From NCBI RefSeq assembly GCF_000024465.1, contig NC_014010.1, positions 310,001 to 374,000 of the forward strand: a stretch of DNA of 64,000 nt. The letters are read 5' to 3'. The DNA is from Candidatus Puniceispirillum marinum IMCC1322. Lineage in GTDB: Bacteria > Pseudomonadota > Alphaproteobacteria > Puniceispirillales > Puniceispirillaceae. A program made the position numbers and the translations under genes. Below the pieces are notes generated by a model. The model was not told the DNA's origin. It saw only the letters and a program-made list of their open reading frames with translations, and made no database searches. Shown one piece after another: positions 13,731 through 23,588 of this stretch (the stretch's first letter is position 1; each line of letters starts with the position of its first letter).

Positions 13731-14837
13731 CTATTTAAATACCGCAATGGGTGCTCCCAACTTAGCCTTGTCAAGGCTTATACCAAGGCCGGGTTCATCG
13801 CTAGCGGTTAAGGTGCCATTAATTCGCTCAGGCGGATTCTGCGCTACTGATACGGTGACATAACTGTTGAAATCGGTCGATGAGAAGCGGTAATTCTGAT
13901 TGGTCGAATGTGCCAGATGGGCAATCGCCGCGGTGGTTACGTCCCCGCCCCACGAATCTTCAATTGTCATAGGAATGCCAAGTGCGACGCATAAATCCCT
14001 AATCTGGCGTGCCTTGGTCAAGCCGCCAACCTTTGAAATTTTCAAATTGATGGCATCCATTGCTTGATCACCATAAGCGCGCAGGAACATGGCCAGCCCA
14101 TCGATATTTTCATCCAGAATAAATGGTAATGGTGTTAGTCGCCGAATGCTGACGCAATGATCATAGTTAGGGCATGGTTGCTCGATATATATGTCAAGCT
14201 CACGTACTGCATTGACCACACGCCGCGCATCCGTCACTGACCAGCCTGTATTGGCATCAGCTACCAATACCTCATCTGTGGCCATCACATTGCGGGTGGC
14301 AAAACAACGCGCAATATCATCATTAGCATTGCCACCAACCTTTAGCTGGAATTTCGTATAGCCTTCATCTCGGTATTTTTGCACATTGGCGGCCATTTCA
14401 TCAGCAGGTAGTTGGGTAATAGCGCGATATAGGGCAACACTTTCGCCATCACGACCGCCCATCAGATCACAAACCGATTTTCCGGTTTGCTGGCCTAAAA
14501 TATCCCAGCAAGCCATATCAATAGGTGACTTAACATAGGGGTGCCCCAATAAGGCGCGATCCATGATATCGTTAATACGCTGTATCGCGGTGGCATCCTG
14601 ACCAATTAGATGTGGTGCCAGTTCGGCGATGCCAGTGCGGACACCGGGGCCATAAGCGGGTAGATAAAACGGCCCCAGAGGACAGACTTCGCCAACACCC
14701 GTAATGCCCGCATCAGTTTCAAGTTCAATCACTGTTGAGTCAAAGGTTTCGACATATTTACCGTCGGCCCATGAATAGCGGCCTTCTTTGAGTGGTAAGT
14801 CAACCTGATAGACACGAATTTCTTTGATACTAGCCAT
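13731..14837 (-). CDS. Enolase-superfamily enzyme, hydroxyproline(betaine) epimerase/dehydratase type
   Basis: A 368-residue member of the mandelate racemase/muconate lactonizing group. Metal ligands are at Asp194 (VADANTGW), Glu219 (IEQPC) and Asp242 (LDENIDG). The lysine pair is Lys166 (FQLKVGG) and Lys266 (NLKISKVGG); the first lysine of the usual KxK is Gln164. The N-terminal capping domain (GEVCPLGPFYLPAYG) looks like 4-hydroxyproline betaine 2-epimerase (HpbD) and the related cis-3-hydroxy-L-proline dehydratase. Together with the proline-racemase homologues nearby this suggests a hydroxyproline isomer or its betaine as substrate. Epimerase and dehydratase cannot be separated by eye. Confidence 0.75.
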   Translation of the reverse strand: MASIKEIRVYQVDLPLKEGRYSWADGKYVETFDSTVIELETDAGITGVGEVCPLGPFYLPAYGPGVRTGIAELAPHLIGQDATAIQRINDIMDRALLGHPYVKSPIDMACWDILGQQTGKSVCDLMGGRDGESVALYRAITQLPADEMAANVQKYRDEGYTKFQLKVGGNANDDIARCFATRNVMATDEVLVADANTGWSVTDARRVVNAVRELDIYIEQPCPNYDHCVSIRRLTPLPFILDENIDGLAMFLRAYGDQAMDAINLKISKVGGLTKARQIRDLCVALGIPMTIEDSWGGDVTTAAIAHLAHSTNQNYRFSSTDFNSYVTVSVAQNPPERINGTLTASDEPGLGISLDKAKLGAPIAVFK

Positions 14838-14898: not shown

Positions 14899-15621
14899 CT
14901 AAGTGACATTGGACAGAAACCGCTTTGCATGTGCACTTTTTGGGTTTGCAATAACTTGTGATGGTGGGCCAATTTCTTCGATCAGGCCTTCATGCACATA
15001 AGCCACACGATCAGAAACATCGCGTGCAAATCCAATTTCATGTGTAACCACAAGCATAGTCATACCTGCATCACTCAATAACCGCATTGTGTCCAAAACC
15101 TCACCAACCAGTTCTGGATCAAGCGCGGATGTAACCTCGTCAAATAGCATATAGCGTGGTTCCATAGCCAAAGCGCGCGCGATCGCAAGACGTTGTTGCT
15201 GACCACCTGACATCCGGCTTGGATACACATCAAACTTATCGCCTAGACCAACATGCTCTAACTGCGCCTTAGCAATTTCTTCTGACTCAGGTTTGGATTT
15301 GCCAAGTACAATTTTTGGAGCCAAGGCCACATTTTCAAGCGTTGTCAAATGCGGAAAGGCGTTATATTGCTGAAAAACCATTCCAATTTTCTGGCGTAGT
15401 TTATTCATGTCAGTTGATTTTGAATGAACATCAACACCATCGACAAGTATCTGTCCGCTTTGAATGTCCTCAAGCCCATTTATACAATAAAGCAAAGTTG
15501 ATTTGCCTGAACCACTGGCTCCAATGATCGAAATCACCTCGCCTTGCTGAACGGTCAGATCTACGCCTTTCAGAACTTCAAGCTCACCAAAGGATTTTCT
15601 AAGGTTTTTAATTTCAATCAT
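14899..15621 (-). CDS. Polar amino-acid ABC importer, ATP-binding protein
   Basis: A 240-residue ATPase of the GlnQ/HisP type. Walker A is GASGSGKST (residues 34-42), the signature is MSGGQQQRLAIARAL and Walker B is YMLFDEVTSALDPE. The stop codon of the preceding permease overlaps this gene's ATG. It powers the two permeases upstream in the operon. The next gene downstream, 61 bp on, is the enolase-superfamily enzyme, so import and catabolism are co-transcribed. Confidence 0.95.
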   Translation of the reverse strand: MIEIKNLRKSFGELEVLKGVDLTVQQGEVISIIGASGSGKSTLLYCINGLEDIQSGQILVDGVDVHSKSTDMNKLRQKIGMVFQQYNAFPHLTTLENVALAPKIVLGKSKPESEEIAKAQLEHVGLGDKFDVYPSRMSGGQQQRLAIARALAMEPRYMLFDEVTSALDPELVGEVLDTMRLLSDAGMTMLVVTHEIGFARDVSDRVAYVHEGLIEEIGPPSQVIANPKSAHAKRFLSNVT

Positions 15622-16291
15622 ATTGCCACCTCTTTTCTAAGCGGTCGGTGATACGTGCAATTGGATATGACAGCATAAAATAAAAGCCACCAACAACTGC
15701 CAAAATAATAAAAGGTTCCTGTGTCCGGGTAACCAATATTTGTGAAGCGCGAAGTAGTTCGACATAACCAAGCACTGACACTAATGCCGAGTCCTTCAAC
15801 ACACCTAGCGCCACTCCTGTCCAAGCTGGAAGAACCGCACGTAACCCGATCGGAAATACGACGTAACGAATGTCTTGAAAATACGTCATGCCAAGCGAGC
15901 GAGCTGCACGGCGCATCGGCAAGGGGGTTGCTTCTACACCGCTTCGTGCGACCTGCGCGACCAAGGCGGCGGTATAGACTATTAGCACGATTGTACCTGC
16001 CATGAACGGCGATAGTGGCAAACCGATAATCGGAAAAAAATTATAGAACAGAATTAGCTGGATGATGAGTGGCACGCTTCGAAACACATCCAGTATCAGA
16101 TTTAAAATAGCTGTTAAATAGCGATTAAATTCGGCTAGAATCCATCCAAAGATAACGCCAAGTAAACTACCCGAAGATATGGCAATCACCGAAATCATCA
16201 AGGTTCGCATTGCGGCTTCACCCAGAAACAAAAAGTCTGACGCCTTGAAAGCGGTAAAGAATGCGATGGTTGGGGCTGCTGAAGTTTCCAT
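15614..16291 (-). CDS. Polar amino-acid ABC importer, permease
   Basis: A 225-residue HisM/GlnP-type permease with about five membrane helices. The EAA loop is present near GVEATPLPMRRAARSLGMTY, where the cytoplasmic ATPase docks. It overlaps the downstream ATPase gene by 8 bp and follows the other permease gene by 8 bp, as expected for the two-permease class of family-3 importers. Confidence 0.93.
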   Translation of the reverse strand: METSAAPTIAFFTAFKASDFLFLGEAAMRTLMISVIAISSGSLLGVIFGWILAEFNRYLTAILNLILDVFRSVPLIIQLILFYNFFPIIGLPLSPFMAGTIVLIVYTAALVAQVARSGVEATPLPMRRAARSLGMTYFQDIRYVVFPIGLRAVLPAWTGVALGVLKDSALVSVLGYVELLRASQILVTRTQEPFIILAVVGGFYFMLSYPIARITDRLEKRWQYD

Positions 16292-16299
16292 TGGTGCCC

Positions 16300-16959
16300 C
16301 TAATATCTAAATAACCGGCGGCCAATAATCCACGATAAGCCCAAGATAATCTTGACGATCGCGTAATATATAATGGCGGCGGCTAGAAAATATTCAAAAA
16401 TGCGAAATGTCTTAAACGCAAGGAACTGGGTTTCGCCCGATAGTTCGCGGAAGCCGACCAACATGCCCAGAGAACTCATTAATACAGACCATACAAGCTG
16501 ATTTGTCATGGGATGGTAAACGATACGAAAAACCTGTGGAATCGCGATGCGCAAATAGGTTTGTGTAATGGACATGCCTAATGAACGTGCCGCCCGAATT
16601 TGAGTGTTAGGTATGGCGTTAAAGCCACCACGAAAGGTTTCGGCTAGATAACCAGCATTATTGAAGGATAAGCCAAATAGCACGATTAAAAAGGGGCTGA
16701 GATGAATACCCAAAGCACCAAGACCAAAGCCAAAGAAAAACAATTGCAACAAGGCTGGTGTATTTCGGGCAATTTCAATCCAGCCATAGGCAAAAGCGCG
16801 CATGGGACGGTTCCCATACATTTTCATTAAAGCCAAAGCCATGCCAATCAAAATGCCACACAACATGGCTAGCATGGCAACTTCCATAGTTACCAAACCG
16901 GCAGCTATAAGCTGGTCAAGTTTGCGAAAAACGGGTCGCCAATGAAAATTATAATCCAT
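16300..16959 (-). CDS. Polar amino-acid ABC importer, permease
   Basis: A 219-residue permease of the same HisM/GlnP family as the next gene in the operon, with an EAA loop near NAIPNTQIRAARSLGMSI. The first helix follows a short amphipathic start (MDYNFHWRPVFRKL). It is separated from the binding-protein gene upstream by 141 bp that hold a stem-loop, a usual way to keep the binding protein in excess over the membrane parts. Confidence 0.93.
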   Translation of the reverse strand: MDYNFHWRPVFRKLDQLIAAGLVTMEVAMLAMLCGILIGMALALMKMYGNRPMRAFAYGWIEIARNTPALLQLFFFGFGLGALGIHLSPFLIVLFGLSFNNAGYLAETFRGGFNAIPNTQIRAARSLGMSITQTYLRIAIPQVFRIVYHPMTNQLVWSVLMSSLGMLVGFRELSGETQFLAFKTFRIFEYFLAAAIIYYAIVKIILGLSWIIGRRLFRY

Positions 16960-17100: not shown

Positions 17101-17928
17101 CTAGTACATAACGCCTGGGATGCGTAGCTCAGGTGCTTCACCGCCGACATATTTGCCCCACAGTTCCTGATAACGACCTGACCGCACCTGCTGTGTTACA
17201 AACAGATTAAGATAGTTCAACCAGCCAAAATCTTTGCGCGGGCCAACCACTGATGTGTAATCTGTTGTCCATGGCATTCTCGGGCCAGCGACAATTGTGT
17301 CATATTGATTGGTGATAGGCTTAACAGCAGTGTTTGTTGTGATGCCTGCATCAATCTTGCCTTGGGCAACAGCCAGGAAAACTTCATTTTCGCTTTGGAA
17401 GCCTTGATACAGATTTTCCGTACCCCATTCTTTGGCAATTTTCAAAAACTCAATCTCAGGAACGGTACCAACAGCTGCACCAACACGCTTGCCTTTCATA
17501 TCGGCAAAGCTTGTGATGCCTGACTCTTTTGTCACCACTGCTTGTGCATAATAGATCGCATAAGGAATGGTGAAACCGACTGTCTTGGCACGCTCAAGCG
17601 TATCGGATGTGCCGCCAAAAACCACATCAGCGCGGTTTGATACGATACTTGGCAATCTCTCAGCCCAGGTCAGTGGGATGATTTCGTAATCAACATCCAT
17701 GGCTGTGGCCAAATCTTTACAATACTCGACGTCAAAGCCAGCTGGCTCATTATTGGCATCGCGATATCCAATGGGTGGAAAGTCCAAAACAACACCACAA
17801 CGGACTTTGCCGTTATCAATCACGTCATCTAACTTATCAGCTTGTGCTACTGTTCCAGTTGTCAAAGCCAACGATAAAGCTAGTGATGCACAAACAGCCA
17901 TCTTGTTAATAAAATTCTTGGTTCTCAT
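17101..17928 (-). CDS. Polar amino-acid ABC importer, periplasmic binding protein (family 3)
   Basis: A 275-residue exported protein, starting with a signal peptide that ends near TVAQA-DK (about residue 30). CAGGAGAG precedes the ATG. The mature part has the family-3 signature (VRCGVVLDFPPIGYRDANNEPAGFDVEYCKDLA) and the later GKRVGAAVGT block. It is the first gene of an operon that continues through both permeases, the ATPase and three catabolic enzymes. The ligand is probably the hydroxyproline-like compound metabolised downstream; this is inference from context. Twin GTCGAC sites lie just upstream. Confidence 0.93.
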   Translation of the reverse strand: MRTKNFINKMAVCASLALSLALTTGTVAQADKLDDVIDNGKVRCGVVLDFPPIGYRDANNEPAGFDVEYCKDLATAMDVDYEIIPLTWAERLPSIVSNRADVVFGGTSDTLERAKTVGFTIPYAIYYAQAVVTKESGITSFADMKGKRVGAAVGTVPEIEFLKIAKEWGTENLYQGFQSENEVFLAVAQGKIDAGITTNTAVKPITNQYDTIVAGPRMPWTTDYTSVVGPRKDFGWLNYLNLFVTQQVRSGRYQELWGKYVGGEAPELRIPGVMY

Positions 17929-17978
17929 TTCACTCTCCTGATTAGGTTTTGAGTTTGGACAATTTTTTAAACCGTAGC

Positions 17979-18000
17979 ATGTCGACTTTATGTCGACAAT
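17979..18000. promoter_or_regulatory. Twin GTCGAC operator upstream of the importer operon
   Basis: ATGTCGAC occurs twice in tandem: the GTCGAC cores are at 17981-17986 and 17992-17997, exactly 11 bp apart, or one helical turn. The pair lies about 50-65 bp upstream of the binding-protein start codon. A matching arrangement occurs on the other side of the GntR gene at 18918-18934. Both fit operators of the adjacent GntR regulator; binding is not proven. Confidence 0.6.
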
Positions 18001-18102
18001 CTTTTTGATTTTAAAAATGTGCTGAATAAAAAGCCGCTTCTGCGAGGATGTTAAGAATACTTATGATACGAACGGGACAGGAAACAGGATAAGTAAAAGC
18101 GT

Positions 18103-18819
18103 TTAACTTTGACCATCACGCGGTTTGACGCGAATATCAAAGTCTGTTGAGTGGCGGTCATTCAGATAGTTCAAAAACTTTGTAGCCACATCAATGGCGT
18201 GCGCTTTGGCGAGGGTTTCAGCCCGGTCAGCATCTTTGTTCTCGATTGCATCTATTATTAAGTCATGTTCATCGGCGACCGAGTCGGGTACGCCTTCAAA
18301 AAACGAGTTAAAATATAGATACAGCATGCGTTTGCCATCATCGAGAAGGCGTGAATATAGAAAATCAAAGTATTTATTCCGCGCCGCTTTGCTGATGGCC
18401 ATATGAAATTCACGGTTTGAATCGATCATGAGGGCAAAATCGGCTTGCGCTAAGGCATTTCTAAACTCTATTTGTTTAGCGCGCATAAATTCCAGATCGT
18501 CTTCGGTGCGAAATTGCGCAGCTAGGCGCGTTACCAGACGCTGGATCAATTCCAGCGCATCCAAATAATCGGGAAGGGTGTCCAGCCCCAACGGCGCCAC
18601 GACAGAATTCTTATTTGGCAAGGTATGAACAAGACCTTCCATTGAGAGCCGAATAAGGGCTTCACGGATAGGCGATCGCGACATTAAAAAGCGCGAGCTT
18701 AGACTGGCTTCATCAAGCAATTCGCCAGGTGCCAACTCAAGACAAATTATCGATTCTCGTAAATGTTGATAAACAAATTTGGCGCTATCGCCACGTTTTC
18801 GTGTGGGTCCGTTTTTCAT
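18103..18819 (-). CDS. GntR-family regulator, FCD (FadR) subfamily
   Basis: A 238-residue regulator. Residues about 12-80 form the winged helix-turn-helix (FVYQHLRESIICLELAPGE, then SRSPIREALIRLSMEGLV). The C-terminal all-helical FCD domain has the metal/ligand-binding pattern with Asp and His residues (DSNREFHMAI and later EHDLIIDAI, KAHAIDV). It sits between the importer operon on its own strand and the divergent DapA/aldehyde dehydrogenase operon, with matching palindromes in both flanking gaps. It is very probably the local regulator responding to the imported substrate or an intermediate. Confidence 0.92.
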   Translation of the reverse strand: MKNGPTRKRGDSAKFVYQHLRESIICLELAPGELLDEASLSSRFLMSRSPIREALIRLSMEGLVHTLPNKNSVVAPLGLDTLPDYLDALELIQRLVTRLAAQFRTEDDLEFMRAKQIEFRNALAQADFALMIDSNREFHMAISKAARNKYFDFLYSRLLDDGKRMLYLYFNSFFEGVPDSVADEHDLIIDAIENKDADRAETLAKAHAIDVATKFLNYLNDRHSTDFDIRVKPRDGQS

Positions 18820-18917
18820 TATTTAAATGCGTTCCTTAAACTCATTATCCTTATTCTACTTAATCTCCGTCAATAAAGGCTGGCAATCAATTGGTTGGAA
18901 TATTTTAATCGATTATA

Positions 18918-18934
18918 GTATACAAATAGTCGAC
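18918..18934. promoter_or_regulatory. GTATAC/GTCGAC operator between GntR and DapA-family genes
   Basis: GTATAC at 18918-18923 and GTCGAC at 18929-18934 are two 6-bp palindromes spaced 11 bp apart, start to start. This is the same phasing as the twin GTCGAC site at 17981-17997. The site is in the 227-bp gap between the divergent GntR gene and the DapA-family gene. It probably serves autoregulation and control of the downstream operon. Confidence 0.55.
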
Positions 18935-19046
18935 AAGGCAACGACACGCGCTTTTTGACTGTCTCTTAAGGCCAAATATTAATAGAAGCTATGTGTCAGT
19001 TGTCTAATAGTTTTGCCTTTACTACGTATGCTTATGGAGCTTAGCG

Positions 19047-19988
19047 ATGTTTGACGGTATTATACCTCCCATTATCACGCCTTTTAACGATGATATGTCA
19101 GTTGACGAAAAAGGATTTGCTACGGTCATTGAATATATGATTGCAAATGGAGTCCACGCCATCATTGTGGGTGGCACAACAGGTGAGAACTATTCCCTTA
19201 GCACCGCAGAACGCATTAATCAATTTGGCGTTGCACGCGACATCATAAATGGTCGTGTGCCAATGATTTGCGGTGTAAATGACATGACTACAGCTACTGC
19301 CGTTGGGCTAGCAGAAGCTGCGCGAGATAAAGGGGCTGATGGTATTTTGTTGGCTGCGCCGCCTTATTCATTGCCAACTGAACGAGAATTAGCTGCGCAT
19401 TGTTTGTTAATTGACCGTGCGGCAGATTTGCCCATCATGCTTTATAATTATCCGGGTCGAACAGGCGTCTGGATGGGGGAAGAATTTCTCTCTCGCGTTG
19501 GACAGCGTAATAACTTCATGTCGATCAAAGAAGCGAGTGGTGACATCAACCGCATTCATCTTTTAGCACGAGAATTTCCACATATAGCGTTGAGTTGTGG
19601 TGCAGAAGACCAGGCTCTTGAATTTTTTGTTTGGGGCGCTACCAGTTGGGTCACGCCTATGGCTAATTTCTTTTGTGCGGAACTTGTCCGTTTTTACGAA
19701 TTATGTCGATTTGAAAAAGATTTTGATACTGCCCGCGAAATGATGACAGCCTTGTTACCGTTAACAACCGTAATCGAAGGTGGCGGAAAATTTGCCCAAT
19801 CAGTGAAATTCTGTGTCGAGTTTCAGGGCATGTCAGCAGGCCCGGTGCGGCCACCAATGCGCGCTTTAAAGAAAGAACAAAAGCGCGCTTTGCGGGAGGT
19901 CATCGAAACAGCCAAAATTAGCCTACAGTCAATCCTGTCCGACAAAGAAACCAAGAAAGATGAGTCTCATGTCAAACTTGTTAAATAA
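19047..19988 (+). CDS. DapA-family lyase/deaminase (candidate pyrroline-4-hydroxy-2-carboxylate deaminase)
   Basis: A 313-residue (beta/alpha)8 barrel of the dihydrodipicolinate synthase/N-acetylneuraminate lyase superfamily. The Schiff-base lysine is Lys161 (SIKEASGD) and the catalytic tyrosine Tyr133 (LYNYPGRTG), the same numbers as in E. coli DapA. GGTTGENYSLS forms the carboxylate-binding loop. It is not expected to be the lysine-biosynthetic enzyme, because it lies with a GntR gene, an aldehyde dehydrogenase and proline-racemase homologues. In that setting the family member HypD converts pyrroline-4-hydroxy-2-carboxylate to 2-oxoglutarate semialdehyde. A sugar-acid dehydratase (KdgD type) is the main alternative. 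Confidence 0.8.
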   Translation: MFDGIIPPIITPFNDDMSVDEKGFATVIEYMIANGVHAIIVGGTTGENYSLSTAERINQFGVARDIINGRVPMICGVNDMTTATAVGLAEAARDKGADGILLAAPPYSLPTERELAAHCLLIDRAADLPIMLYNYPGRTGVWMGEEFLSRVGQRNNFMSIKEASGDINRIHLLAREFPHIALSCGAEDQALEFFVWGATSWVTPMANFFCAELVRFYELCRFEKDFDTAREMMTALLPLTTVIEGGGKFAQSVKFCVEFQGMSAGPVRPPMRALKKEQKRALREVIETAKISLQSILSDKETKKDESHVKLVK

Positions 19989-21495
19989 GCACGAAATTCA
20001 GGCCATTGCAGAACAGGTAAACTTTCCCAATACGGCTTTTATAAATGGTAAATTTGGAGCAGCTAAATCAGGCAAAACATTTGCCACGATTAATCCTGCA
20101 ACTGGAGAGACACTCACCCAGATTGCAGCCTGTGATGCTGATGATGTTGATCTAGCTGTTGCAAAAGGTCGCAAGGCGTTTAATAGCGGAAGTTGGTCGA
20201 AAATGCACCCAACCGATCGCAAAAACACCATGATCAAGTTGGCCAAATTATTGACTCGTCACCGTAATGAATTGGCAGTGCTTGAAAGTCTGGAAAGCGG
20301 CAAGCCGATTAAAGATTGCCTCGAAATTGATGTGCCAGAAACCATTCAATGCTTATTATGGCATGCCGAAGCTGCTGATAAAATTTATGATCAAATTTCG
20401 CCATCAGGTGACGTTGCGCTTGGCATGATTGTACGCGAACCGGCGGGTGTTGTGGCATGCGTACTGCCATGGAATTTTCCACTGATGATGCTAGCATGGA
20501 AAATGGGCCCAGCCTTGGCAAGCGGTAACAGCGTTATTGTGAAACCAGCTGAACTAACCAGCATGACAGCTTTGAAAGTTGCTGAACTTGCCGAAGAAGC
20601 AGGAATTCCTGAAGGGGTATTTCAGGTTATTCCCGGACTTGGTGAGACAGCAGGGCAGGCAATTGGGCGTCATCCCGATATCAATGTGATTTCGTTTACT
20701 GGATCGACTGAAATTGGACGCCGTTTTCTGGAATATTCGGCACAATCCAATCTCAAGCGTGTAACGCTTGAATGTGGGGGTAAAAACCCTGCAGTGGTTC
20801 TGCAGGATGCCAAACAACTTGACGATATCGCGCGTCATGTGGTGCAAGCGGCGTTCTGGAACATGGGGCAGAATTGCACAGCCAATTCAAGACTCATCGT
20901 GCATAAGAATATTCATGATGCGCTGGTTGAACGGATCATTGACCGGACAGCTGATTGGCGGACAGGTGACCCACTTGATCCTTCGAATGCACTAGGGGCG
21001 ATTGTGTCGCAAGAGCAATTTGACAAGGTTAATGGCTTTATTGATGGCGCCAAAAAGCAAGGGGCACGTCAATTGACCAAAGAGCCTGCAAAGAGTAATG
21101 GCAGAGGTCTATTCATTACGCCAACCATTTTTGGTGATGTGAAGCCTGATATGGAAATTGCGGTTGATGAAGTTTTTGGGCCAGTGATGGCAGTCATTCC
21201 CGTTGGTTCAGATCAGGAAGCTATCACATTGGCTAATCAGACCGAATATGGCTTACAGGCGTCTTTATTTACATCTGATGTGGGACGAGCGCATTTCTAT
21301 TCACGCCAGCTACAGGCCGGCACTGTGTCGGTCAATTGCTATAGTGAGGGTGATATTACCACACCATTTGGTGGCTATAAGCAATCTGGCTTTGGCGGCA
21401 AGGATAATTCCCTGATGGCGCACGACCAATATGTCCAAACAAAAACAATTTGGATCGACCTTAGCGAAGATCATATTGAAGAAGATATAGGATAA
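19969..21495 (+). CDS. Aldehyde dehydrogenase (candidate 2-oxoglutarate semialdehyde dehydrogenase)
   Basis: A 508-residue ALDH. The ATG at 19969 is preferred to the one at 19960, because AAGAAAG would touch the latter. Either start overlaps the DapA-family gene. Conserved blocks are [10 protein letters not shown], the [13 protein letters not shown] loop, the catalytic glutamate in LECGGKNP, the catalytic cysteine in [12 protein letters not shown] and [16 protein letters not shown] near the end. Overall it looks like the PuuC/ALDH1 group. Paired with the DapA-family gene it would oxidise 2-oxoglutarate semialdehyde to 2-oxoglutarate; this substrate is inferred. Confidence 0.9.
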
Positions 21496-21496
21496 T

Positions 21497-22534
21497 TTGA
21501 TGCGTTCATCGCGGCTTATTCACATCATTGGCTGTCATGCTGAAGGCGAGGTTGGAGATGTTATTGTAGGCGGTGTTGCACCACCTCCAGGCACGACTAT
21601 CTGGGAACAATCACGTTTTCTGGCACAGGATGACGGTTTACGGCAATTCATATTAAATGAACCACGCGGTGGTGTGTTTCGTCACATCAATCTTTTGGTT
21701 CCACCCAAGCATCCTGATGCTGATATGGGCTTTATCATTATGGAGCCTGAAGATACACCGCCCATGTCTGGGTCAAATAGCATGTGCGTATCCACAGTAT
21801 TGCTGGAAAGTGGCATTATCGAAATGCAGGAGCCGGAAACGAAACTTGTTCTGGAAGCTCCTGGTGGACTGGTGCATGTGACCGCGCAATGCGCTAATGG
21901 TAAGGTGCAATCTGTCAAAGTTCTGAATTTACCATCTTTTGCTGATCGTTTGGATGCGCCATTAGAGGTTGAGGGCGTTGGTACATTAACCGTTGATACG
22001 GCGTTTGGTGGAGATAGTTTTGTGGTGGTTGATGCTCCCGCACTTGGCTTTGCGCTGACCGCCGATGAAGCGGCTGATCTGGCGCAAATGGGTATTCGTA
22101 TTACTAAAGCTGCCAATGACCAACTTGGGTTTTCGCATCCCAGTATGCTTGATTGGAACCATATTTCATTTTGCCAATTCGCGGCGCCTGTCGAAATGGT
22201 TGATGGTGTGCTAACTGGACGCAATACGGTTGTTATCCAGCCTGGCAAGCTTGACCGCAGCCCAACAGGTACGGGTTGTTCAGCGCGATTGGCCATTTTG
22301 CATGCTCGTGGAATGATTGATATTAACCAGCCCTTTAGAGGCGTTTCGGTTATCGATTCGGTTTTTGATTGCCAGATTGAGTCTGTGCTGAATATGGAAG
22401 GTAAAATGGCAATCCGGCCATCGATCCGTGGCCGGGCTTGGTTGACTGGCAACCGACAACTTATGCTGGATCCAAGTGACCCATTCCAGTCTGGCTATCG
22501 GCTAAGCGATACATGGCCAAAAATAAAAATCTAA
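21497..22534 (+). CDS. Proline racemase superfamily protein with Ser/Thr catalytic pair
   Basis: A 345-residue member of the proline racemase/hydroxyproline epimerase superfamily. Where racemases and epimerases have catalytic cysteines, this protein has Ser91 (PPMSGSNSM) and Thr257 ([12 protein letters not shown]). In the superfamily a Cys/Cys pair marks racemase/epimerase, and Ser/Cys or Thr/Cys marks trans-3-hydroxy-L-proline dehydratase. A Ser/Thr pair fits neither well, though Cys261 is four residues on. The gene starts 2 bp after the aldehyde dehydrogenase stop. It is probably a hydroxyproline-type epimerase or dehydratase, activity uncertain. Confidence 0.85.
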
Positions 22535-22544
22535 AACTATTTGG

Positions 22545-23588
22545 CTAATCAACATTGCTCATGAGATCAAAGGCATCCCCCCAGCAATCTGATACAGAAT
22601 ACCCTTCCAGATAGGGGTCATTCGGGTCAATGCCAATTTCATGTTTGCCAAAAACCCAGCCGCGTCCAGATATCCTTGGTAATATTGCAGAAACCCCGCC
22701 AATGGACTTTAAGCCAGTGATTTCGACATCAAAATAGCTATTGATTATAGAGCGCGCTGTTCGTTTTTCACCAACCTCAATCTGTCCACGCGCATACATC
22801 ACAGCAAGCCGTGCTGAATTACCAGTGCCGCAAGGTGAACGATCAATTCGCCCAGGTGGTAAAATTGTTGCGCCCTGCATCTCTCCATCAGAATTGAAAC
22901 CTGTGAACATGGTGTAGGAAAGACCTTCCAAGCCGTCAATTTCAGGATGTTTGATGACAAGGTCACGGTTAATTGTCCGGTGAACTTTAGTGCCAATTTC
23001 AACCAGTTGGCGGGCGTTATTCGGCACTATATCCATATTGAATTGCGCCACATCAATAAGACCATAGAAAACACCACCAAAGGCAATATCAACTATCACT
23101 TGACCAATACCATCTACATCGATTTTTACATCCAGATCGGTAGCAAAACTGGGGTTCATATCAAGGCTAACCCTTTCGCATTTACCACTCTTACATTGCG
23201 CTGTTGCTTTGACGAGTCCTGCTGGTGTATCTAAATGCAAAATTGTTGTAGGCTCTTTCATCTCGATGATACCGGTCTCAAGCACAACAGTCGTAAGGCA
23301 GATCGAATTAGATCCCGACATGGCATGCGCTTTGTCACCTTGTAAAATGATAAAGGCGACATCAGCATCTGGTCGTGTGGGTGGAAATAATAGATTGGTC
23401 GACATTTGAGCGTAACCGCGTGGTTCAAACACTAAAAAGCGGCGCAGACTATCATCCTGATCATTGATATAGTTCATTTTGCTCAGCATGGTGTCGCCAG
23501 GCACATGAAAGTCCCCGCCGGTCACTATCCGGCCAACTTCACCTTCGGCATGCGCTTCGATCATCTTTACGGTCTTTGTTAAACGCAT
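22545..23588 (-). CDS. Proline racemase superfamily protein, Ser/Cys type (candidate trans-3-hydroxy-L-proline dehydratase)
   Basis: A 347-residue paralogue of the gene it converges on. The catalytic pair is Ser91 (HAMSGSNSIC) and Cys253 (DRSPCGTGNSAR). In this superfamily loss of the first cysteine with the second retained is the hallmark of trans-3-hydroxy-L-proline dehydratases, which give pyrroline-2-carboxylate. The stop codons of the two paralogues are 10 bp apart on opposite strands. No pyrroline-2-carboxylate reductase is recognisable in the window. The enzyme class is well supported; the exact substrate is inferred. Confidence 0.85.
   Translation of the reverse strand: MRLTKTVKMIEAHAEGEVGRIVTGGDFHVPGDTMLSKMNYINDQDDSLRRFLVFEPRGYAQMSTNLLFPPTRPDADVAFIILQGDKAHAMSGSNSICLTTVVLETGIIEMKEPTTILHLDTPAGLVKATAQCKSGKCERVSLDMNPSFATDLDVKIDVDGIGQVIVDIAFGGVFYGLIDVAQFNMDIVPNNARQLVEIGTKVHRTINRDLVIKHPEIDGLEGLSYTMFTGFNSDGEMQGATILPPGRIDRSPCGTGNSARLAVMYARGQIEVGEKRTARSIINSYFDVEITGLKSIGGVSAILPRISGRGWVFGKHEIGIDPNDPYLEGYSVSDCWGDAFDLMSNVD

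Follow-up and report, generated by a model that had tools for sequence, protein, structure and literature searches.

The 64-kb stretch of DNA analyzed here (the window) contains a gene for an FCD-type GntR regulator that stands between two presumed operons, with a pair of short palindromes in each of the gaps on its two sides (Table 1). One operon encodes an amino-acid-type ABC importer and a cis-3-hydroxy-L-proline dehydratase (c3HypD); the other encodes a DapA-family enzyme, an aldehyde dehydrogenase, and a trans-3-hydroxy-L-proline dehydratase (t3HypD). Each presumed operon therefore holds one 3-hydroxyproline dehydratase as defined by NCBIfam, and because both t3HypD and c3HypD score above the curated NCBIfam cut-offs, the cluster appears to handle 3-hydroxyprolines, compounds that derive from collagen. 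The DapA-family protein falls below the cut-off of the dapA model TIGR00674 (188.9 versus 206.15), and the aldehyde dehydrogenase passes no cut-off among the 25 of 43 NCBIfam models listed. The names of the permease and ATPase genes come from a match to the S. meliloti hyp locus and the annotation there, not from Pfam. Two genes of the proline racemase family end towards each other; at the positions that we take to be catalytic, their translations read Ser/Thr in the t3HypD and Ser/Cys in the second enzyme. The latter passes no cut-off among 6 NCBIfam models and may be an epimerase, since only the former passes the t3HypD cut-off.

Table 1. Genes and candidate regulatory features around gntR (positions in the window)
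Feature	Position	Strand	Basis or remark
c3HypD, cis-3-hydroxy-L-proline dehydratase (enolase superfamily)	13731..14837	minus	NCBIfam NF043002, 589.6 bits, cut-off 500
Importer, two permease genes and ATPase gene	14899..16959	minus	ORFs; tblastn match to S. meliloti hyp-locus importer
Substrate-binding protein, amino-acid-type ABC importer	17101..17928	minus	Pfam SBP_bac_3; first gene after operator 1
Operator 1, GTCGAC-N5-GTCGAC	17981..17997	minus	Candidate doubled operator upstream of importer operon
gntR, FCD-type GntR regulator, 238 aa, HypR-like	18103..18819	minus	Pfam GntR and FCD, over cut-off
Promoter-like TTGCCT-18-TATAAT for gntR	18912..18941	minus	Consensus scan; operator 2 fills spacer
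Operator 2, GTATAC-N5-GTCGAC	18918..18934	minus	Candidate doubled operator, divergent gntR/dapA gap
dapA, DapA-family lyase/deaminase	19047..19988	plus	Pfam DHDPS; first gene of divergent operon
Aldehyde dehydrogenase	19960..21495	plus	Pfam Aldedh
t3HypD, trans-3-hydroxy-L-proline dehydratase (proline racemase family)	21497..22534	plus	NCBIfam NF047722, 610.1 bits, cut-off 550
Second proline-racemase-family enzyme	22545..23588	minus	Pfam Pro_racemase; converges on dapA operon

Gap 1, which precedes the importer operon (17929-18102, 174 bp), carries GTCGAC at 17981-17986 and again at 17992-17997, and gap 2, which separates gntR and dapA (18820-19046, 227 bp), carries GTATAC at 18918-18923 and GTCGAC at 18929-18934. 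The original prediction had these letters and positions right, as well as the spacing: the centers of the two palindromes lie 11 bp apart in operator 1 and operator 2 alike. All four hexamers are perfect palindromes of the form GT-2nt-AC, and each gap has exactly two GTNNAC sites, which are the members of the pair. Read on the minus strand, operator 1 is TTGTCGACA-taa-AGTCGACA and operator 2 is TTGTCGACT-att-TGTATACT (whole stretch, cTTGTCGACTattTGTATACTat). The prediction needs correction in one respect: since the importer operon and gntR share the minus strand, gap 1 is a co-directional promoter region, and gap 2 alone is divergent.

The pattern GTNNAC-N5-GTNNAC occurs twice in the window, both times in a gap beside gntR, versus 0.43 expected. 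At least two such pairs arose in 8 of 100 whole-window shuffles; the bare count is not convincing by itself, but the placement of the pairs in the gaps is. In 30,000 dinucleotide shuffles of the two gaps, an 11-bp pair never appeared in both at once, and any common spacing from 6 to 40 bp was seen in a single shuffle. The predicted gntR promoter in gap 2 is a weak call, as such matches are common by chance (4 promoter-like sites in 1251 bases by the consensus scan versus 2.9 expected).

The original prediction also called for a genome-wide scan and would have been refuted by many such pairs at unrelated positions. Among the 2,753,527 bases of this genome, GTNNAC-N5-GTNNAC was found at 15 places, 8 of them intergenic by a mechanical ORF check, and only three consist of two perfect palindromes (read from the listing): the two in the window and one GTTAAC-N5-GTTAAC. 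Some of the other matches are repeated copies (GTAGACATAGTGTAGAC at G000:C1:179216 and 200665; GTATACCCTGTGTACAC at G000:C1:1427124 and 1438061, in inverted orientation), which suggests repeated elements. The extended single site WGTCGACW occurs 31 times, and the ORF check classes 4 of these sites as intergenic. The gntR locus holds 3 of the 4; the remaining one (G000:C1:1070051, L139) has no 11-bp partner. Perfect palindromes thus do not form many such pairs at unrelated positions in this genome. In 385 genomes of the class, however, exact GTATAC-N5-GTCGAC occurs at 20 places (window included) and its N6 control at 23, and a gntR similar to that of the window was absent within about 1.5 kb of all 19 places outside the window; the bare pair of hexamers has no diagnostic value elsewhere.

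The window regulator matches PF00392 with 53.5 bits (cut-off 27) and PF07729 with 74.4 bits (cut-off 24.3). In a predicted structural model with a mean pLDDT of 89.5, residues 79 to 222 form an FCD domain of six helices, as in the VanR group, and helix 1 starts at residue 11, leaving an N-terminal arm of about 10 residues. The nearest folds in the PDB are 7u5q, Atu1419 (6z74/6za3), and McbR (4p9f). FCD-domain matches in this genome number only three (L016, L017, and L018, at G000 1920008, 328199, and 1006748), the window regulator among them. A close orthologue suitable for direct footprinting was not found in any of the three sets of genomes searched. In 101 genomes (own included) there were 13 matches at E <= 1e-20, the best other being 38% identical; in 136 genomes of the order there were 2 at E <= 1e-30, the protein itself and the 38% relative L186; in 385 genomes of the class there were 9 at E <= 1e-45, the best other being about 45% identical. 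Neither a dapA nor a binding-protein gene was found beside gntR in L186. In L187, from a genome of the same family, gntR, dapA, and the aldehyde dehydrogenase gene stand in a row (DapA 50% and aldehyde dehydrogenase 56% identical), and the upstream sequence AAATAC-ATATT-GTATAC (L187 6386-6402, read by eye) has the half-site form of the 11-bp pair.

We turned to relatives with 40-50% identity to the window regulator, from plasmids and genomes, and examined the regions upstream of their gntR genes. Of 94 such regions, 68 contain TGTCGACA and 76 contain GTCGAC. A second, TGTNNACA-like box peaks exactly 11 bp from TGTCGACA at 45 non-redundant anchors, with a score of 3.18 versus 1.49 (sd 0.16) on the gntR side and 2.29 versus 1.51 (sd 0.15) on the other; 11 bp is the best of 33 offsets, and none of 1000 shuffles scored as high at any offset. 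These anchors remained after near-copies (more than 62% identity over 96 bp) were thinned from 64 to 45 (65 to 46 with the window included), and they omit those closer than 50-56 bp to the region ends, which removes most S. meliloti-type hypR promoters. An anchor-free test gave the same spacing. It left out regions shorter than 200 bp, and thinning of near-copies reduced the set (92 to 71 regions upstream of gntR, 12 to 10 upstream of the importer). A pair at lag 11 is present in 37 of the 71 gntR-upstream regions, the best of 34 lags, with a mean of 3.5 and a maximum of 10 in 400 shuffles and with 4 and 5 regions at lags 10 and 12. Upstream of the importer binding-protein gene, 5 of 10 regions have a pair at lag 11, compared with a mean of 0.3 and a maximum of 3 in the shuffles. 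In the controls, lag 11 occurred in 2 of 26 unrelated FCD regulators from the class, level with other lags; in 1 of 12 more distant relatives, with a flat profile; and in a mean of 2.5 and a maximum of 8 of 71 random segments of the same loci. Thinning does not make the relatives independent of one another, and 39 of 95 sequences have no pair at the threshold used; some others pass through a chance neighbor, as in L033, where the partner is GGAGAC, which resembles a ribosome-binding site.

Conservation extends to the near and the far half of the second palindrome: the near TG is present in 32 and the far CA in 35 of 90 flanks, and the two co-occur only mildly above expectation (Fisher p 0.046). 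The full TGNNNNCA stands 11 bp from 17 of 45 anchors, whereas no other offset below 26 has it at more than 3. Two lesser peaks, at 26 bp (7 of 45 anchors) and at 29 bp (8 of 45), stem at least partly from promoters with two doubled units. The second box is weaker than the first in relatives and degenerate in most of the 29 non-redundant pairs, so that one dimer with an additional contact, or asymmetric binding, is possible. The 5-bp spacer is A/T-rich (77% A+T in the 29 pairs).

In importer promoters of related loci, read by eye and post hoc, GTATAC-N5-GTATTT and similar pairs are found, and an 11-bp partner is present in 9 of 12 loci with a binding-protein match (half-sites counted, L037 weak, L091 sequence not printed). 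The original prediction had tied both operons of the window to one regulator. Phylogenetic footprinting supports this, in that the 11-bp partner emerges as a property of the regulator lineage.

A matrix was trained on the relatives alone, with 29 pairs that remained of 76 after thinning, all of them with GTCGAC or GTATAC as the strong site. The resulting consensus, TTGTCGACA-NNN-TGTATACA (full, nTTGTCGACAnnnTGTATACAnn), is close to the minus-strand reading of operator 2. Because the training pairs were chosen for lag 11, only the ranking of sites in the window is independent evidence. In a scan of the 64 kb, the two highest-scoring places were gap 1 (24.4) and then gap 2 (22.1), with 12.8 at the best other place, and an unfiltered profile search of the window gave 14.7, 12.2, and 5.1 bits, respectively. 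This supports the original claim that the two gaps predict the binding motif of the regulator. A filtered genome-wide profile search, in which 150 of 376 first-look candidates were scored, returned gap 1 as the best hit, with a marginal E of 0.11, and did not report gap 2; across 13 sources, the filtered profile gave no hits beyond gap 1 and a single site in each of L087, L094, and L156.

An S. meliloti relative is 45.5% identical to the window regulator. In the annotated record it adjoins a DapA-family gene, an ABC importer, an FAD oxidoreductase, and a 4-hydroxyproline epimerase, and from this hyp gene set we infer that it is HypR. In a quick tree, the only phylogeny of the regulators made, the window protein branches outside the S. 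meliloti HypR group (supports 81-93) and its branch is long; for this reason we use the name HypR-like for it. No NCBIfam model matched any of seven guessed ORFs of the S. meliloti 1021 locus at 1e-40. At the hyp locus, a strong palindrome with an 11-bp partner, in some cases a half-site, is present in 4 of 4 regions examined (upstream of gntR, of the DapA gene, and of the importer, and next to the Ldh gene), which were chosen after a matrix scan.

According to the available text of PMC5343134, HypR represses hyp genes with 4-hydroxy-L-proline as inducer. The HypR regulon of S. meliloti and other Proteobacteria resembles the window cluster in having an FCD-type GntR protein over hydroxyproline uptake and catabolism, a GT-2nt-AC palindrome, an ABC importer, and a DapA-family enzyme; the available text of PMC4494728 likewise gives 2 nt between GT and AC in HypR sites. 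The neighborhood in the window is accordingly HypR-regulon-like, with t3HypD and c3HypD assigned by NCBIfam and DapA, aldehyde dehydrogenase, and binding protein by Pfam. On the other hand, the window cluster encodes 3-hydroxyproline dehydratases, its regulator is about 45% identical, and operator doubling is not mentioned in the part of the HypR account in PMC5343134 that was available. Streptomyces coelicolor HypR, in the available text of PMC6608401, is also an autoregulated FCD GntR repressor of hydroxyproline genes; however, its footprint motif TACAATGTCAC has no clear palindrome, and that text mentions direct repeats in two sites and no 11-bp doubling. An 11-bp operator doubling is not described in the titles and abstract openings searched, a set that does not include White et al. 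2012 on S. meliloti HypR.

Taken together, the gene content, the sites, and their conservation beside homologous regulators make it likely that each gap is one doubled operator, occupied by two dimers of a local HypR-like repressor of hydroxyproline uptake and catabolism. One dimer would bind each 10-bp palindrome, with the consensus NTTGT(CG/AT)ACAN, and with 11 bp, or about one helical turn, from one palindrome to the next, two dimers would sit side by side on one face of the DNA, probably helping each other bind. That two dimers share a face, as originally suggested, is the natural reading of the 11 bp and fits the conservation of the second palindrome. Without inducer, the pair on operator 1 would block the importer promoter, and the pair on operator 2 would repress both gntR and the divergent operon of dapA, aldehyde dehydrogenase, and hydroxyproline dehydratase; operator 2 would be suited to autorepression, since it fills the spacer of the predicted gntR promoter. 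Binding of a hydroxyproline-derived effector in the FCD domain would then lead to release.

In another reading, a single dimer might occupy the strong GTCGAC as the true site and use the 11-bp neighbor as an accessory half-site, contacted through a flexible arm or, transiently, by a second subunit. The weakness of the second box in relatives would suit this, as would the basic arm of the lineage (below), and in 13 FadR-subfamily groups weaker half-sites 7-12 nt from the site center are reported as a statistical finding in the available text of PMC4494728, a range that includes the near half in the window, at 9 nt. However, the window has a full second palindrome at a fixed 11 bp, all four of its hexamers are perfect, and the spacing belongs to one lineage, with no peak in the 26 other FCD regulators; in relatives the second palindrome is conserved in its near and its far half, which favors a complete second dimer. 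We therefore regard the single dimer as doubtful. It is unlikely that gap 1 and gap 2 are bridged by a tetramer (a dimer of dimers, like Atu1419) that loops out gntR (937 bp). Atu1419/VanR of Agrobacterium fabrum has the same six-helix FCD fold, its structures are among the closest to our model, its 10-bp palindrome ATGTATACAT is of similar type, and it can loop sites 190 bp apart, as given in the available text of PMC7797058; yet its separate palindromes lie within one region, its identity in the fold alignment is 24%, and bridging alone leaves the 11-bp doubling at each end unexplained.

Readings that dispense with a protein fare worse than the doubled operator. Gap 1 was listed as terminator-like on the plus strand (TGTCGACTTTATGTCGACA followed by ATCTTTTTGA), and the repeats might accordingly be an RNA hairpin or terminator, but this site is antisense to both flanking genes, and the minus strand has no T-run after it. 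Moreover, any two palindromes yield an inverted repeat; the palindromes of gap 2 differ, so that the same long hairpin is impossible there, and the conserved pairs of relatives include non-complementary ones. We rejected the hairpin as very improbable on the antisense position, the missing T-run, and the non-complementary pairs. Chance, with 11 bp as one of many spacings that could have been noticed, would find some room in the whole-window shuffles; the gap shuffles and the recurrence of lag 11 beside related regulators reduce it to a negligible probability, and for practical purposes it was rejected.

A basic N-terminal arm with the pattern [RK]Gx[GSA] precedes helix 1 in 85 of 95 lineage sequences and in none of the 26 unrelated FCD regulators. 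Pairs were called in 54 of the 85 sequences with the arm versus 2 of the 10 without it, an association that is a lead only, because the 95 sequences include near-copies. We tentatively suggest, as a possibility that we hold at less than even, that the HypR-like lineage fixed the doubled operator and that the short basic arm locks the second dimer at 11 bp, perhaps via the A/T-rich spacer. Phased repeats occupied by several adjacent dimers of an FCD regulator are known from NanR of E. coli, three dimers of which bind (GGTATA)3 cooperatively via an N-terminal extension according to the available text of PMC8012715; for the window such an arrangement is a proposal. In NanR the sites are direct repeats and the extension has 32 residues, whereas the window has palindromes and a protein whose helix 1 begins at residue 11. 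If the arm does lock the second dimer, this would be a second way, beside that of NanR, for FCD regulators to build cooperative arrays.

GntR operators with flanking extra sites are known; the present analysis adds the exact, lineage-wide 11-bp doubling, which is fully palindromic in this genome. It supplies a concrete operator grammar, TTGTCGACA-N3-TGTATACA at 11 bp center to center, for a large, mostly alphaproteobacterial group of hydroxyproline-type regulators, whose regulons should be more predictable with it than with one short palindrome alone. In this genome, a single repressor is predicted to switch the uptake of 3-hydroxyprolines together with their breakdown, and the doubled operator makes possible a simple test of cooperation between FCD regulators.

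Longer arrangements of the same unit were also seen. The S. meliloti importer promoter has a three-unit array in 11-bp steps, and the importer promoters of L094, L097, and L098 show three operator-like units in successive 11-bp steps (by eye). In Rhizobium-group gntR promoters (L065, L067, L081, L082, L084, L088, L093, L096, L099, and L111), two doubled operators stand 29 bp apart, with units at about -149, -138, -120, and -109.
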